A stretch of DNA of 35,182 nt from Alphaproteobacteria bacterium MarineAlpha6_Bin4 (GTDB lineage: Bacteria; Pseudomonadota; Alphaproteobacteria; GCA-002720895). Both the position numbers and the translations under genes were made by a program. Below, one piece after another: positions 13,657-28,412 of the stretch. The first letter of the stretch is position 1; each line of letters starts with the position of its first letter. The stretch spans positions 1 to 35,182 of the forward strand of contig PTKO01000009.1 in the NCBI GenBank assembly GCA_002937775.1. The letters run 5' to 3'. The notes under the pieces are model-generated. The model searched no databases. It was not told the DNA's origin and saw only the letters and a program-made list of their open reading frames with translations.

Positions 13657-13929
13657 TTATTTATCTTCATCGGTAAGAGGCACGTCAACTAAATTAGGCA
13701 AAACAGGAATTGATATTTCTTCTGCAAATTCAATTGTTTCAATTTCTGCCTTTATTATTTCACCTTCTTCAATATAAGCTTTACTTGCACCAATGAAATT
13801 ATCTTTTTGCATCCATCTTGTACCTGGAAATTCTAATTCTTCGTATTGTTTTGATATTGCCAATTGTCCAATAGATAGAATGAAAAAGAAAAGAATAGCG
13901 TATATAGGATATATTAGTTTATTTTTCAT
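13657..13929 (-). CDS. Small secreted or membrane-anchored protein, ECF-promoter associated
   Basis: I do not recognise this 90-residue protein. Residues 1-26 form a hydrophobic segment ending AIS, which reads as a signal peptide or single N-terminal anchor. The rest is acidic (many Glu, ending LTDEDK) with GTRWMQKDNFIGASKAYIEEGE in its middle (the W/Q and GAS residues are the most distinctive). It has no cysteines after the leader and no enzyme motif. It is the last gene on this strand after the sigma/anti-sigma pair. The promoter pattern GCAAT-N16-CGTT ends only 9 bases before its ATG, so its mRNA would be leaderless or nearly so. Its role is inferred only as an output or sensor part of that ECF system. 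Confidence 0.6.
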   Translation of the reverse strand: MKNKLIYPIYAILFFFILSIGQLAISKQYEELEFPGTRWMQKDNFIGASKAYIEEGEIIKAEIETIEFAEEISIPVLPNLVDVPLTDEDK

Positions 13930-13938
13930 ATTATTAAT

Positions 13939-13963
13939 AACGCAATACCTTAAATTTTATTGC
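13939..13963 (-). promoter_or_regulatory. Predicted ECF-sigma promoter before the small secreted protein gene
   Basis: On the minus strand the element reads GCAAT, 16 bases, CGTT. The -35-like part is at 13959-13963 and the -10-like part at 13939-13942. It shares TTGCAATAAAA and the exact spacing with the element before the sigma factor gene (15009-15033). The architecture matches known ECF promoters such as EcfG-type GGAAC-N16/17-CGTT. A start site about 8 bases beyond CGTT falls almost on the ATG at 13929. Confidence 0.6.
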
Positions 13964-13972
13964 AAAAAATAA

Positions 13973-14383
13973 CTATTTTTTTTTATTTAAAATTAGAAAT
14001 ATGATTAGAATTAAAAGAAAAATTATTAAAAAATTAAAATAATTTGAAGTATTTTGTGACAAAAGGGCAGTATTAGGTGAAATAAAGAGCCAACTACCTG
14101 TAATAAAAGCAGTAAAACCCGCTGCTATTTTGTAAAAATTATTGTTAAATTTATCTTTTTTAATTTTATTAACATTAGAAATCTTTTGATACAATTCTTT
14201 AGGCATTTTAATTTTTTTATTTTCTTCAGCTTCTTGTTTAAGAATAGATTTAAATTTCTTTAGACTATCAACTCTTAAATTTACATCTTTGTTATTATTT
14301 ATTAAATATTTTATTTTTTTTCTTTCAGATTCAGAAAGATCATTATTTATAAACCTAACTAATTTACTATCATCAATTATCAT
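13973..14383 (-). CDS. Putative membrane anti-sigma factor
   Basis: This 136-residue protein overlaps the end of the ECF sigma gene by 11 bases, the usual arrangement for a cognate anti-sigma factor. Residues 4-50 (DSKLVRFINNDLSESERKKI and the helix after it) match the N-terminal helical 'L-x-x-Y/F-x-x-G/N-E/D-L' domain of RsiW-like anti-sigma factors. It lacks the HxxxCxxC zinc motif and has no cysteine at all. Two hydrophobic segments follow, about 84-103 and 115-133, separated by a short polar loop near SPNTALLSQNTSN, so the protein is probably membrane-bound with its N terminus in the cytoplasm. The function is inferred from context plus fold resemblance. Confidence 0.72.
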   Translation of the reverse strand: MIIDDSKLVRFINNDLSESERKKIKYLINNNKDVNLRVDSLKKFKSILKQEAEENKKIKMPKELYQKISNVNKIKKDKFNNNFYKIAAGFTAFITGSWLFISPNTALLSQNTSNYFNFLIIFLLILIIFLILNKKK

Positions 14384-14975
14384 TATTAATTTCCTTATAT
14401 TCTAGAACGTTATTTTTATTTAATTCTTGCCTTATTTTTTTTAAGTTTCTATTTATTCTACTACCTATAGTCCCTTGAGAGATTTTAAGTTTTTTGGCTA
14501 CTTCAGAATATTTATAATTTTCAATCATTATTAAAGTAAAAATTTCTCTATCTTCTTGAGATAGTATATTGTCCATTATTTTTAAAATTTCTTTAGCGTC
14601 CATATTTGATGCAAATGGATCTGTTAAAACATCTTCAGTATTGCTAAGCTTTTGAGATTTATATTCATCAAAACTAATTATTTCTTTATTATCAATATAT
14701 TTGTTTTCAGAAATTATCTCTGGAGTTCTTTTTTTTTTTCTATATTTATCTATATATATATTTGTAACGATTAATTTTAAATATCCCAAAATATTAGTAC
14801 CTACTTTATAATTGCTTCTTCCTTTATCATAAGAATTAAAGAATCTTAAATATGCCTGAGAAACTAAATCTTCTGCATCGTGATGATTTGGTGTAAATTT
14901 AAATTTAGTATAATTTAACAGTTCTCCGTAGCATTTTTTTGCTTCTTCTCTAATTAAATCTATTTTTTTTCTCAC
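14373..14975 (-). CDS. ECF-family RNA polymerase sigma factor
   Basis: This 200-residue sigma-70-family protein has only regions 2 and 4. Region 2 spans about 13-82: HHDAEDLVSQAYLRFF at 31-46, then NILGYLKLIVTNIYIDKYRK near 61-80, the -10 recognition helix. Region 4 spans about 128-186: LSQEDREIFTLIMIEN, then a helix-turn-helix YSEVAKKLKISQGTIGSRI (156-174). The start is a GTG at 14975; an in-frame stop lies five codons upstream and no ATG is available, although GGGGAG is unusually close (2 bases). The next gene is a membrane anti-sigma factor, overlapping by 11 bases. A matching ECF-type promoter upstream suggests autoregulation. The ECF subgroup is not assigned. Confidence 0.92.
   Translation of the reverse strand: MRKKIDLIREEAKKCYGELLNYTKFKFTPNHHDAEDLVSQAYLRFFNSYDKGRSNYKVGTNILGYLKLIVTNIYIDKYRKKKRTPEIISENKYIDNKEIISFDEYKSQKLSNTEDVLTDPFASNMDAKEILKIMDNILSQEDREIFTLIMIENYKYSEVAKKLKISQGTIGSRINRNLKKIRQELNKNNVLEYKEINNDN
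14406..14430 (-). promoter_or_regulatory. Weak ECF-like promoter copy before the anti-sigma gene
   Basis: Inside the 3' end of the sigma gene the minus strand reads GCAAG, 16 bases, CGTT. This differs from the two strong copies only at the last base of the -35 part. The CGTT is 22 bases before the anti-sigma ATG (14383), a natural promoter distance. It could give extra anti-sigma transcript, but may be chance. Confidence 0.3.
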
Positions 14976-15008
14976 ATCTCCCCACTTTTATTATAAACTA
15001 ATTAATAA

Positions 15009-15033
15009 AACGAATATTTGTTACTTTTATTGC
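15009..15033 (-). promoter_or_regulatory. Predicted autoregulatory ECF promoter of the sigma factor gene
   Basis: On the minus strand, GCAAT (15029-15033), 16 bases, CGTT (15009-15012). The element lies in the 65-base gap between the protease gene and the sigma gene and would start transcription near 15001, giving a leader of about 25 bases before the GTG. It shares TTGCAATAAAA and the spacing with the element at 13939-13963. ECF sigma genes are commonly autoregulated, which fits. Confidence 0.6.
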
Positions 15034-15040
15034 AATTTAT

Positions 15041-16264
15041 TTAATCACATTTCAAAGGAATAGTGTTTTTTTTCACTTCATTAATAATTTGCTCTTTGGT
15101 TTTTTTCTTTGATTTATCAAAACTAAGATATTCAATATTATGTTCATCTAAAAAGCTTTTAATTGTATAAATAGAGGTTGCCATATACAAACCTTCTGAT
15201 GATGTACTATAACGCAACAAGTCTAGAATTTTTTTTTTTAGCGAATCTTTTCCGTAGACAGTACCTACCATTAGACCATTCTCATTAATAACAGGGCTAC
15301 CGCTTGAACCTGGATACAAATTACTAATTGGTTGTATAATAATTTTTCTTCTATCATTTTTCCTAGTTTTTAATGATTTAATCACACCTTCAGTTTCATC
15401 ATATTTATTTAGAATTGTTTGTCTAGGATACCCAAATATATAAATTTTTTCATCTTCAAGTATTCTTTTAGCCAAATTTACAGGAATAAATGTATTTCTT
15501 TTAATCTCATCACTTTCAAGAATTGCAAGATCATCTTCTTCATCTATTTCATAAAGGCGTAAGCTTAAGTTGTCTTTATATATATTGGATCTAATTTTTT
15601 TACAATTCTTTGCAAAATGAGCTGATGTTAAAACAAATAAATTGTTTTTTTTTCCAATCCAAACTCCAGTTCCATACTTAGATGATTTTCCTATTTCAAT
15701 ATTTTTGTTATTATTTTTATTAGCAATTGCATTTGCTAACATATCGTTTAGTTTTAACCACTCTTCAAATTCACTTGGTTCTTCTATAGGCAGACTTTCT
15801 TTTTCTTGAAATTGTTTTATTGCTGTAAAAGTTTCAATTCCAGGTATATCGTCTCTCTTAATAGGATAACCTAAATCAAACAATTTTTCTTGAACACTTT
15901 TTACGATTAATTCATTCTCAATTTCTAAAGTAGAATTTTTTTGAGCACACATTTCAGAGCCTTTATCAGAACAATATTTGTACCAAAATTTTGCTTTATT
16001 TAATCTTTGTTCTTTAGTTAAATTTTTTTCTGCTAATCCTTTTTCTAGCATCCTTCCTATTTCAAGCATGCACATAAAATGTTCTTTATTACATTTACCA
16101 CCAGAAGTGCATTCATTTGTACATTCGTTGTACCTTTGGTAGGCTTCGGCATATTCTTTATTGTCGAAATGCTCTTTTGCAGTTTCATAATCAATAGAAG
16201 TTAATTTTTTATTAAAAAAAAATATTAGTAAAATAGGGAATAAAAATTTTAATAAGAATTTCAC
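15041..16264 (-). CDS. Secreted trypsin-like serine protease with repeat and PG-binding-like domains
   Basis: This 407-residue protein starts with a signal peptide (about 1-23). Residues 25-110 look like Sel1/TPR helical repeats and contain several cysteines (C48, C52, C58, C65, C98, C106), so disulfides are likely after export. Residues 122-160 resemble a peptidoglycan-binding repeat (VQEKLFDLGYPIKRDDIPGI, then TAIKQFQ). Residues 196-345 are a chymotrypsin-fold protease with the triad H216 (TSAHF), D245 (EDDLAIL) and S321 (PGSSGSPVI). It lies directly upstream of the ECF sigma and anti-sigma genes on the same strand. Context suggests it may sense envelope damage or cleave the membrane anti-sigma factor, by analogy with DegS, but there is no PDZ domain, so this is speculation. 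Confidence 0.85.
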   Translation of the reverse strand: MKFLLKFLFPILLIFFFNKKLTSIDYETAKEHFDNKEYAEAYQRYNECTNECTSGGKCNKEHFMCMLEIGRMLEKGLAEKNLTKEQRLNKAKFWYKYCSDKGSEMCAQKNSTLEIENELIVKSVQEKLFDLGYPIKRDDIPGIETFTAIKQFQEKESLPIEEPSEFEEWLKLNDMLANAIANKNNNKNIEIGKSSKYGTGVWIGKKNNLFVLTSAHFAKNCKKIRSNIYKDNLSLRLYEIDEEDDLAILESDEIKRNTFIPVNLAKRILEDEKIYIFGYPRQTILNKYDETEGVIKSLKTRKNDRRKIIIQPISNLYPGSSGSPVINENGLMVGTVYGKDSLKKKILDLLRYSTSSEGLYMATSIYTIKSFLDEHNIEYLSFDKSKKKTKEQIINEVKKNTIPLKCD

Positions 16265-16324
16265 AGTTAAATAATTAATATCAAATATATTTTATACATT
16301 AAATAATAATTTTTGTTTAAATTT

Positions 16325-16349
16325 GGAACAAATTTATCTAATTTTCGTT
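16325..16349 (+). promoter_or_regulatory. Predicted ECF promoter facing a hairpin RNA candidate
   Basis: On the plus strand, GGAAC (16325-16329), 16 bases, CGTT (16346-16349). This is an exact match to the GGAAC-N16-CGTT form described for alphaproteobacterial EcfG promoters, and a close relative of the two GCAAT-N16-CGTT sites at 13939 and 15009. It points away from the protease gene. No protein gene starts downstream on this strand; transcription from about 16357 would run through the hairpin at 16375-16422 and then antisense to the 3' end of the iron-binding protein gene. Confidence 0.5.
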
Positions 16350-16356
16350 AATTTTA

Positions 16357-16425
16357 TATAGATTTCTATAAATCAAGTAAGGAGTCACTCAATCTCCCTC
16401 AATTAATTTTGGCTCCTTACTTAAA
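16357..16425 (+). ncRNA. Candidate small RNA or structured element with an exposed CUCCCUC loop
   Basis: Downstream of the predicted ECF promoter, the sequence contains a small hairpin, GATTT/AAATC at 16361-16374. It is followed by a long one: AAGTAAGGAG at 16375-16384 pairs perfectly with CTCCTTACTT at 16413-16422, extended by one G-U and one G-C pair. The 24-base loop carries TCTCCCTC, an anti-Shine-Dalgarno-like stretch of the kind seen in regulatory loops of several alphaproteobacterial small RNAs. The 3' flank is A-rich on this strand with no U-run, so an ordinary intrinsic terminator is not evident on either strand. It could instead be a 3' structure of the iron-binding protein mRNA. 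The 5' and 3' limits are estimates. Confidence 0.35.
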
Positions 16426-16434
16426 AAATAGATT

Positions 16435-17478
16435 TTATCGCCACCCGTGTTTTGAGGATAATTTTATACTTTTATTAATTTCTTTTCCAATTTCTTCTAA
16501 ATTTAAATCATACGCTTTAAATTCCCCAAATTTAGTAACAATTTTTGATGGTTTAACGTCATTTCTAATAGAATATTCGTTTATTTTTTTTGTATAAATC
16601 TCTTGCCCTATTTTTGAAGATAAAAATTCTAAGAATAAAACAGCATTCTTATAATTTTTTGTATATTTTATTATTCCAGCACCGCTTAAATTGATATGAG
16701 CACCAAAAGTGTTTTGATTTGGCCAAAATACAGCAACTTTTTTTGCTGCTTTTCTATCTTTCTCATTTTTACTTACAAGCATATTTGCTAAATAATAAGT
16801 ATTTGCTACTGTAATATCGCATTGCCCTGATGCAATTGCTCTAATTTGGTCTCTATCACCTCCAGAGGGTTTTCTAGAAAAATTTTTAACTAATTCCCTG
16901 ATCCATTTTTCAGTTTTTTTTTCACCTAAATTTAAAATCATATAAGAAATTAATGATTGATTATAAACATTATTAGAAGATCTCATACATATCTTGCTTT
17001 TCCAAATTTCATCAGAAAGACTTTCGTAATTATTTAATTTATTTACATTTACTCTTTCATTAGAATATATTATTGGTCGAGATCTTACAGATAATCCAAA
17101 CCAATCATTTTCTTTACTTCTGAATTTTAAAGGTATATTTTTTTCAAGTATTTCTGAATCTACTTTTCTAAATAAATTATTTTTTTTTGCTCTTGTTAGT
17201 CTTGCTACATCTGTGGTAAGTAGAATATCAGCCTTAGTATTTACTCCTTCTAATTTTAATCTTTCAATAAATGCGTCTTCTTTGCCAGTTATAATGTTAA
17301 TTTTTATTTCTTTATTATTTTTTTTAAATTCATTAATTAATGGTTCTATTAAAAAGCTTTTTCTTCCAGAATATATATTAAGTTCATTAGTTGTTTTTGA
17401 TTCTAGAACTAATGAATTAAATAAAATTAGAAAAGTTATAACTATAAAACTAAAAAAACAAATCTTATTTATATTCAT
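16435..17478 (-). CDS. Fe(3+) ABC transporter substrate-binding protein (FutA/FbpA family)
   Basis: This is a 347-residue periplasmic ferric-iron-binding protein. Residues 1-28 form a signal peptide. LNIYSGRKSFLIEPLINEF (33-51) is the usual first strand of the family. SGGDRDQIRAIASGQCDITV (206-224 region) leads to VANTYYLANM, with the tandem tyrosines Y228/Y229 that bind iron. FGAHINLSGAGII and FLEFLSSKIGQEI near the C terminus are also typical. The promoter region holds a perfect Fur box, which strongly supports an iron role. No permease or ATPase gene is adjacent, unlike the usual three-gene transporter operon, so its partners must be encoded elsewhere. Confidence 0.9.
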   Translation of the reverse strand: MNINKICFFSFIVITFLILFNSLVLESKTTNELNIYSGRKSFLIEPLINEFKKNNKEIKINIITGKEDAFIERLKLEGVNTKADILLTTDVARLTRAKKNNLFRKVDSEILEKNIPLKFRSKENDWFGLSVRSRPIIYSNERVNVNKLNNYESLSDEIWKSKICMRSSNNVYNQSLISYMILNLGEKKTEKWIRELVKNFSRKPSGGDRDQIRAIASGQCDITVANTYYLANMLVSKNEKDRKAAKKVAVFWPNQNTFGAHINLSGAGIIKYTKNYKNAVLFLEFLSSKIGQEIYTKKINEYSIRNDVKPSKIVTKFGEFKAYDLNLEEIGKEINKSIKLSSKHGWR

Positions 17479-17497: not shown

Positions 17498-17516
17498 GAT
17501 AATGATAATCATTATC
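17498..17516. promoter_or_regulatory. Fur box
   Basis: The bases GATAATGATAATCATTATC are identical to the classical 19-bp Fur consensus. The palindrome extends by one base on each side. It lies 20 bases before the ATG of the iron-binding protein gene and just downstream of that gene's likely -10 (TATAAT on the minus strand, 17520-17525), so it would cover the start of transcription, an ideal place for iron-dependent repression. It also sits 24 bases upstream of a plus-strand TATAAT (17541-17546) that could serve the decarboxylase gene. Confidence 0.9.
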
Positions 17517-20697: not shown

Positions 20698-21027
20698 ATG
20701 GCAAAAAATTTAATAGAAGATAACCAATATAACCATGAGGTTTTAAAAGAAACTAAACCTAAAAAAAAAATAAAAAAGCCAGCACTGTATAAGGTTGTTA
20801 TGTTAAATGATGATTTTACTCCTATGGACTTTGTTGTTTACTTACTAAAAGTTTTTTTTAAAAAAGAACATCAAGAAGCTTCTAAAATAATGTTAGAAGT
20901 ACATAACAAAGGCGCGGGAATATGCGGCATTTATGCTTATGAGATTGCAGAAACAAAAATATTAAAGGTTATTAATACTGCTAGAAAGAATGGATTTCCA
21001 TTATTGTGTACTTTGGAGAAAGTTTAA
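20698..21027 (+). CDS. clpS: ATP-dependent Clp protease adaptor ClpS
   Basis: This 109-residue N-recognin hands proteins with Leu, Phe, Tyr or Trp at the N terminus to ClpAP. The core is complete: YKVVMLNDDFTPMDFVVYLL, in which the NDD and M residues line the N-degron pocket; VHNKGAGICGIYAYEIAETK; and the C-terminal GFPLLCTLEK. It has a lysine-rich N-terminal tail of about 30 residues. clpA follows after 4 bases. With Aat at 27765-28412, the window holds both ends of the N-degron pathway. Confidence 0.96.
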   Translation: MAKNLIEDNQYNHEVLKETKPKKKIKKPALYKVVMLNDDFTPMDFVVYLLKVFFKKEHQEASKIMLEVHNKGAGICGIYAYEIAETKILKVINTARKNGFPLLCTLEKV

Positions 21028-27452: not shown

Positions 27453-27813
27453 TAAATTATTTATATTTTTTTGTACTTTTTTTTTATTATTCTCAAATAA
27501 TGTTAATTCTATAACTATCCTAGGAGCATTAAATAAAGTAAGTGGTAAAATATCTAAAATAAAAATTGAAGACAATAGTGAAATTTTTTTTGGTACCTTA
27601 AAGATTGTTGTAAAAACTTGTAAAAAATCCTTACCTGAAGATCCGCCAGAAGATTCTGCTTTTATTAAAATATGGGATAGAAAATTTGAAAAAGAAGAAG
27701 AAGAAATTTTTAGTGGCTGGATGTTTTCATCTAGTCCATCAATATCAACAATAGATCATGCTGTTTATGATGTTTGGGTCATAGATTGTATGATATCATA
27801 TATTGAAGATTGA
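27421..27813 (+). CDS. DUF2155 domain-containing secreted protein
   Basis: This 130-residue protein has a signal peptide (roughly 1-30, [19 protein letters not shown]) and then a DUF2155 domain. The domain runs from [14 protein letters not shown], through [24 protein letters not shown] (the C and the PP-E residues), to [17 protein letters not shown] and YDVWVIDC. The two conserved cysteines (in VKTCKK and VIDC) could form a disulfide in the periplasm. The function is unknown. The ATG overlaps the NDUFA12 gene by 32 bases and no later start would keep the whole signal peptide. Its last 49 bases overlap the aat 3' end on the other strand. Confidence 0.85.
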
Positions 27814-28412
27814 GAAATTTTTTTCTTAAAATCTGCATTTTTTTTTAGAGATTTTCCTAACATACTTAAATATTTATCTCTTGATATTTCTATTGCTCCA
27901 AATCCTTCCAAATGAGGATTGACAAACTGGGTATCTAAAAGAGTAAAGCCTCTTATCTTTAAATTAGCAACCAAATATACTAAGCAGATTTTACTTGAAT
28001 TAGAAACAGTGCTAAACATACTTTCACCAAAAAAAGCTGAGCCTAATGATACACCATAAAGACCTCCAACTAATTTATTTTTTGACCAAGCTTCAAGAGA
28101 ATGGGCGTGCCCAATTTTATGCAAGTTAGAATATAATTTTATTATTTCTTTATTAATCCACGTAGTCGGCCTTCCTTTTGTTTTTTTTGCACAATTAGCA
28201 ATGACTTTATTAAAATTTGTATTTATGGTGATTTTAAATTTTTTTTTTTTAATCTCTTTTTTTAAACTTTTTGATATTTTCAAATCATTTAATGGAATAA
28301 CACCTCTTTTTTTTGGATTTATCCAATATATATTTGGATCATCAATACTCTCAGACATTGGAAATATTCCTAGAGAGTAACCTTTTAAGATTGTTTGTTC
28401 GTTAATGCTCAT
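27765..28412 (-). CDS. aat: Leucyl/phenylalanyl-tRNA--protein transferase
   Basis: This 215-residue enzyme transfers Leu or Phe from aminoacyl-tRNA to proteins starting with Lys or Arg, creating ClpS-recognised N-degrons. Typical segments are [10 protein letters not shown] (12-21), [38 protein letters not shown] (the HAHS.E.W part is most diagnostic), [21 protein letters not shown], and [16 protein letters not shown] (D and H conserved). The start overlaps the accC stop by one base (TAATG). The C-terminal tail after YLSMLGKSL extends into sequence antisense to the DUF2155 gene. ClpS and ClpA, the downstream partners, are at 20698-23341. Confidence 0.95.

Follow-up and report, generated by a model that had tools for sequence, protein, structure and literature searches.

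The DNA analyzed here, referred to as the window, is a stretch of 35,182 nucleotides on contig PTKO01000009.1 of Alphaproteobacteria bacterium MarineAlpha6_Bin4, a marine organism whose genome is very small, and the subject of this work is a group of four adjacent genes on its minus strand together with the regulatory elements found among them. According to the list of open reading frames, these genes encode a protease of 407 amino acids (16264..15041), an extracytoplasmic function (ECF) sigma factor of 200 amino acids with regions 2 and 4 (14975..14373), a putative membrane anti-sigma factor of 136 amino acids (14383..13973) and a small acidic protein of 90 amino acids (13929..13657). The reading frame of the putative inhibitor overlaps that of the sigma factor by 11 nucleotides. 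All four frames are thus present as reported in a first-pass annotation of this DNA, which had described them as a self-contained module for envelope signalling.

The conservation of the locus was assessed in the order containing the source genome, which comprises six genomes in the collection used, all of them incomplete (54-89%). Four genomes of a single genus carry all four genes in the same order; they are represented by the window and by the loci L009 (AG-464-G09), L010 (SP2998) and L011 (SP38), the last two of which are labelled Pelagibacteraceae. As the orthologues keep this order in L009, L010 and L011, the four reading frames are not chance occurrences. The flanks are likewise the same in these four genomes and consist of a gene for an iron-type binding protein (SBP) and a glycosyltransferase (GT) gene. 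In the genome G005 (locus L020), which belongs to a second genus, the inhibitor and small-protein genes adjoin the same glycosyltransferase, and the contig ends inside the inhibitor gene; the protease gene is absent from this assembly, whose contig stops there. The searched parts of the module are all missing from genome G003, which also lacks a close copy of the glycosyltransferase gene, a result in which gene loss and missing sequence are indistinguishable. The co-occurrence of the four genes, which the first-pass annotation had put forward for checking, is therefore seen in four of six genomes; both exceptions are incomplete, and G005 retains what its contig spans. In a sample of 385 genomes from across the class, relatives of the small protein and close relatives of the protease were not seen outside the genus.

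The sigma protein matches Sigma70_r2 (2.2e-7) and Sigma70_r4_2 (2.1e-9), both above the Pfam cut-off and with no match to region 3, and scores 72.9 bits against the sigma70-ECF model TIGR02937, the cut-off of which is 42.9. Its best match in NCBIfam is SigH_actino with 80 bits, far under the cut-off of 251.55. Five proteins with a sigma region 2 were found in the source genome. The gene described here encodes an ECF factor and is the only such gene found in its genome, since the other four proteins lie in open frames of about 300 amino acids or longer. The earlier view of a dedicated ECF module for envelope signalling is supported, and the gene order is conserved.

In the window, the putative anti-sigma factor has an N-terminal domain of three helices plus one and, at its C-terminus, two membrane helices (type A tail). 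Helices were predicted at residues 5-15, 18-30, 32-54, 62-101 and 112-134, with a mean pLDDT of 62.9. Class I anti-sigma domains are built from a three-helix bundle and a fourth helix that grips sigma2/sigma4, and the predicted helix order of the 136-amino-acid protein fits this plan (PMC7406223). In a Foldseek search, seven of the nine matches were chains of the anti-sigma factor RslA; these matches are weak, with an E value of 3.3 and a probability of 0.12 for the top one (3hug) and no better E values for the rest. An Hx3Cx2C zinc-binding motif was not found, the N-terminal domain being free of cysteine in every genome examined, as had been noted for the window. The tail of the protein occurs in two types. 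In the window and L010 it consists of two membrane helices and contains no cysteine, whereas in L009, L011 and G005 it has a single membrane helix and then a periplasmic part that contains two cysteines; the original description as a cysteine-free protein with two helices thus applies to the former type only. Neither the 136- nor the 90-amino-acid protein matched a family in Pfam, NCBIfam or PHROGs. Overall, it is mainly position, overlap and topology that suggest an anti-sigma role for the 136-amino-acid protein, the evidence from its fold being weak.

The protease contains a Trypsin_2 domain (Pfam, E value 3.4e-15, residues 198-334), the catalytic triad of which, H216, D245 and S321, is invariant in the four genomes. 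Its N-terminus is formed by a signal or anchor helix and a subsequent helical part, and a PG_binding_1-like domain at about residues 121-159 reaches 22.1 bits, just below the cut-off of 23. No PDZ domain was matched in Pfam, and the HtrA model degP_htrA_DO gave 31.4 bits as compared to a cut-off of 416.2. The predicted structure is poor (pLDDT 42.8). The protein is presumed to be periplasmic and to serve as site-1 protease and sensor. In L009 (6698-7936) and L011 (6730-7938), where the inhibitor has the cysteine tail, the sequence GSSGSP of the protease is replaced by HSSGSP, with His in place of Gly two residues before the catalytic Ser. This variant may lower or gate the activity of the enzyme.

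Three promoters of the ECF type were recognized at the locus. The first, GCAATAAAAGTAACAAATATTCGTT (15009..15033, minus strand), belongs to the sigma/anti-sigma operon and has an equivalent site in four of four genomes. The second, GCAATAAAATTTAAGGTATTGCGTT (13939..13963, minus strand), is located 9 nucleotides before the ATG of the small-protein gene and is present in five of five genomes. The third, GGAACAAATTTATCTAATTTTCGTT (16325..16349, plus strand), lies between the SBP and protease genes, points away from the protease and is again seen in four of four genomes. The sequence GCAATAAAA-N12-CGTT precedes both the sigma and the small-protein gene, with 0.00 occurrences expected in shuffles. 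Across the genomes the promoters take the form G[GC]AA(T)AA-N14-CGTT, with fixed spacing and a variable spacer, and were found in 13 of 13 expected places. Alphaproteobacterial ECF factors are known to use GGAAC-N16-CGTT promoters, which the motif at this locus resembles. A strict search of the six whole genomes returned 12 matches, 11 of them at this locus and one inside hisB, and the reversed pattern used as a control gave 8 in all. As for further members of the regulon, strict-form matches elsewhere in the six genomes are no commoner than chance. The presence of the motif upstream of the sigma operon in all four genomes argues for autoregulation, the placement of these sites pointing to this sigma factor as their reader.

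No motif of the ECF type was found on the protease gene's own strand upstream of it. Since the protease thus lacks the promoter shared by the sigma and small-protein genes, the locus probably consists of three transcription units and is not the single set of the first-pass annotation. In a region from 16290 to 16349, the plus-strand ECF-type promoter is arranged back to back with a conserved AT-rich region that resembles a promoter of the protease gene itself, and use of either one could hinder the other.

The small protein has an N-terminal hydrophobic stretch and is predicted to be exported or membrane-anchored. Its conserved motifs are P-x-TRW...D-x-IGxSK and FA(E)xI-x-IPxLPxL...PLTxEDK, and we would guess from the conserved C-terminal motif that it has a binding partner. 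The distance between CGTT and the ATG amounts to 9, 9, 9, 9 and 10 nucleotides in the five genomes, and the mRNA of this gene should therefore be nearly leaderless. As the gene is preceded by the promoter type of the sigma gene, its product looks like a probable output of the sigma factor and not like the signal that it had been suggested to be.

The third promoter points into a hairpin (16361-16422) that is conserved in four of four genomes. A sigma-dependent small RNA is predicted here (16361..16422, plus strand), composed of a small hairpin of 5 bp and a main hairpin of 10-13 bp. The folding z values on the plus strand are -5.4, -5.1, -3.8 and -4.6 in the four genomes. Among the four sequences, each of the 60 cells that make up the 15 proposed pairs holds a standard pair, with none broken, and three pairs of the main stem show compensatory changes. 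Read on the plus strand, each of the four wobble cells is G-U, and on the minus strand an A-C mismatch; this points to the plus strand as the RNA. The loop, UCUCCCUCAA, is invariant at 10 of 10 positions while its flanks vary; in the window it is TCTCCCTCAA (16393..16402, plus strand). A covariance model of the hairpin (R1) gave strong matches at this locus only, with no convincing paralogues, and no family in Rfam matches the hairpin; whether Rfam includes a GsrN model was not checked. Read on the minus strand, the loop (16386-16400) yields GAGGGAG followed by a tiny frame, MAPYLIL in L009 and MTPYLIL in L011. These two loci have an ATG 5 nucleotides past GAGGGAG, in place of which the window has GTG and L010 has CTG; this micro-ORF is probably a by-product of the loop. 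A further, antisense reading frame on the plus strand (16409-16597) has no counterpart in the lists of reading frames of the relatives and was taken as a chance occurrence.

Complementarity to the loop is found in the sigma gene, at its ribosome-binding site (14977..14983 in the window, minus strand), which reads GAGGGAGA in L009, L010 and L011. In the window this site is GGGGAGA, and the pairing extends further into the start region. When the pairing energies of the loop were ranked for local gene starts, the sigma leader came first among 24, 12, 10 and 13 starts, respectively, in the four genomes, with -16.0 to -17.4 kcal/mol as compared to -5.3 to -10.8 kcal/mol for the next-best local start. 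Shuffled leaders matched the energy of the sigma leader in 13, 13, 0 and 3 of 2000 trials. Genome-wide, the exact pattern GAGGGAG was searched instead; ahead of genuine starts it is rare, and among the sites examined only that of the sigma gene recurs between genomes. Most of the other sites fetched were out of frame or intragenic. The few genuine GAGGGAG starts, those of a small membrane protein and of an amidohydrolase with two gene copies in genome G001, were not seen in the other genomes. The two near-identical amidohydrolase copies of G001 lie on different contigs (L107 on C20 and L108 on C18) and are possibly an artefact of assembly or contamination, G001 being listed at 6% contamination. 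From promoter, fold and loop complementarity we infer that the plus-strand hairpin is expressed as a sigma-dependent small RNA which damps its own sigma factor.

The two types of inhibitor tail are mirrored in the protease. For the four genomes, we counted the sites that group the window with L010 and L009 with L011 and compared them with the sites supporting each of the two alternative splits. Residues 113-407 of the protease, which include its second and its catalytic domain, gave 43:2:1. In the same order, the counts are 5:6:7 for SBP, 0:1:3 for protease residues 1-112, 7:1:3 for the sigma factor, 0:1:3 for anti-sigma residues 1-75, 0:2:0 for the small protein, 8:16:9 for GT and 2:10:2 for fhs. 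At the DNA level the signal is high in 15000-16049, at baseline in 14100-14399, which covers the N-terminal part of the inhibitor, and high again in 13950-14099, with 15:4:4 at the anti-sigma tail. Two separated segments with a common split that is contradicted between and around them suggest an enzyme and its substrate, for which four genomes give a strong hint but no proof. Proteolysis, named earlier as a possible signal, is the probable route and gains support from this coupling. As the cysteine tail is also present in G005 of the other genus, this type is older than the genus. The genes of the original module description were correct, and to them are now added the plus-strand unit of promoter and hairpin (16325-16422), the shared promoter motif, a small-protein mRNA with almost no leader, a predicted RNA for feedback and the matching types of protease and inhibitor tail.

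On balance, we consider it somewhat probable that these elements form a compact, self-limiting ECF sigma circuit for envelope stress within a single 3-kb locus. In such a circuit, the periplasmic protease would sense trouble in the envelope or cell wall and, once triggered, cleave the anti-sigma factor in its outer or membrane part, so that the sigma factor is freed. The freed sigma factor would read the G[GC]AATAA-N14-CGTT promoters and drive its own operon including the anti-sigma gene, the nearly leaderless mRNA of the small exported protein as the protein output, and the small RNA on the opposite strand. The open loop of this RNA would then pair with the sigma mRNA at its ribosome-binding site and lower its translation, a pairing that the small-protein mRNA would escape because it has no leader to pair. 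The outcome would be a pulse-like alarm that yields the small protein and then shuts itself down. A more far-reaching version, in which the whole direct regulon of the ECF factor is its own locus, the RNA blocks translation of its own sigma factor, and protease and inhibitor tail are swapped as matched types, would make a one-step feedback loop in a streamlined ocean bacterium; it is less likely than not.

Several observations weigh against the circuit. The 136-amino-acid protein matches no anti-sigma model in Pfam or NCBIfam and nothing of this kind among PDB sequences, and its fold match is weak (E value of at least 3.3). In two genomes the protease has His for Gly two residues ahead of the catalytic Ser. 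The covariation of the hairpin is only moderately above that of shuffles, 15 of 500 of which reach it; downstream of it the plus strand shows no convincing intrinsic terminator, and the hairpin is found in four genomes only, all of them incomplete.

Among the alternatives, the one that survives best sees in the protease no activator but a quality-control enzyme that is unrelated to the circuit or acts downstream of it; release of the anti-sigma factor would then be due to a ligand, the small protein or a different protease. The missing promoter motif of the protease gene and a possible feedback of the small protein on the inhibitor would agree with this. Periplasmic quality-control proteases encoded beside ECF operons are also known, for example MucD in algU-mucABCD, which favours the same explanation. 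However, the coupling between protease residues 113-407 and the anti-sigma tail, seen against all flanking segments, suggests direct contact, and the adjacency of the genes is kept in four genomes; we judge a non-activating protease to be unlikely.

The hairpin might also do no more than terminate the gene for the iron-binding protein, or it might be an element in the leader of the protease mRNA, in which case no small RNA would be made. It directly follows the SBP stop codon, its stems fold on both strands, and in L009 and L011 the minus-strand loop places GAGGGAG 5 nucleotides ahead of an ATG. On the minus strand, however, all four wobble cells are mismatched, there is no clear U-run, and a terminator scan did not flag the hairpin; moreover, the micro-ORF would start with GTG in the window and with CTG in L010. 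A terminator does not need an invariant loop of 10 nucleotides, and an ECF-type promoter facing the hairpin in four of four genomes would be left unexplained. Such an explanation is rather improbable. The same degree of doubt attaches to the idea of an expressed RNA that acts on many mRNAs with G-rich leaders in the manner of GsrN, so that its pairing with the sigma mRNA would play a minor part or cause no feedback. GsrN provides the precedent, as it showed no feedback on SigT though nepR-sigT mRNA co-purified with it (PMC5869019), and target energies were ranked among local gene starts only. Against a broad action stand the rarity of GAGGGAG before genuine starts genome-wide, with no other site recurring among those examined, and the match to the sigma leader, which is kept in all four genomes. 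Least probable is a single old recombination block of protease, sigma gene and inhibitor tail, with exchange at a later time and without any functional link between the coupled types: the segments do lie within 2 kb and this split is also mildly overrepresented in the sigma gene (7:1:3), but inhibitor residues 1-75, between both segments, show the opposite (0:1:3; DNA baseline in 14100-14399), and G005, from another genus, also carries the cysteine tail.

The proposed self-limiting circuit shares features with several known systems. In algU-mucABCD of Pseudomonas, as here, an ECF sigma factor, a membrane anti-sigma factor (putative at this locus) and an HtrA-like serine protease are encoded together; unlike there, the protease gene lies upstream with transcription of its own, neither MucB nor MucC is among the four genes, and a small exported protein and an RNA are additional. 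The E. coli sigma-E system is made up of RpoE, RseA, DegS and RseP and includes the small RNAs MicA, RybB and MicL (PMC8103513). With it the locus has in common an ECF sigma factor, a membrane anti-sigma factor without zinc motif, which is putative here, a periplasmic protease of trypsin fold and a sigma-dependent small RNA arm, which is a prediction here (PMC8103513). Unlike DegS, the protease described here has no PDZ match, is encoded beside the sigma gene and contains a PG-binding-like domain. The sigma-E small RNAs act mainly on envelope mRNAs, whereas the best local target here is the sigma mRNA itself, and the regulon, unlike that of sigma-E, appears confined to the locus.

GsrN of Caulobacter depends on the EcfG-type factor SigT, exposes a C-rich loop and is located near the sigma locus in most Caulobacteraceae (PMC5869019). 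The RNA predicted here likewise has an alphaproteobacterial ECF promoter of similar type, which it would use, together with an exposed C-rich loop and a location near the sigma gene. It differs in being a single hairpin with a large loop, predicted to target the sigma gene at its ribosome-binding site, while GsrN showed no feedback on SigT. The locus also differs from the SigT/EcfG system in that no NepR-like soluble inhibitor was found beside the sigma gene, the neighbouring inhibitor having membrane helices and no family match. In Rhodobacter sphaeroides, the small RNA StsR lowers rpoE mRNA and is itself made by RpoHI/RpoHII (PMC8307010). As in this RpoE-RpoHII-StsR loop, a small RNA would close a negative loop on an ECF sigma factor; however, StsR acts one step removed and the loop predicted here is direct. 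No direct RNA loop from an ECF factor to its own mRNA was found in the literature searched.

Two observations concern the neighbourhood of the module. A perfect Fur-box-like palindrome, GATAATGATTATCATTATC (17498-17516, minus strand), precedes the iron-type binding-protein gene (17478..16435) and is kept in L009, L010 and L011; the gene next to the module is therefore probably iron-regulated. Furthermore, the ClpS adaptor (20698-21027) and leucyl/phenylalanyl-tRNA protein transferase (27768-28412), the two halves of the bacterial N-end-rule pathway, are encoded about 7 kb apart in the window.

SAR11-type bacteria have been described as possessing only the sigma factors RpoD and RpoH (PMC13198564), and a lineage of similar build that keeps one ECF factor therefore shows what minimal envelope signalling may look like. 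Should the predicted RNA prove real, a sigma factor would here feed back directly on its own mRNA. Such feedback would be less complex than that of StsR and would have an effect not seen with GsrN, and the system is compact enough to be reconstructed in a laboratory strain.

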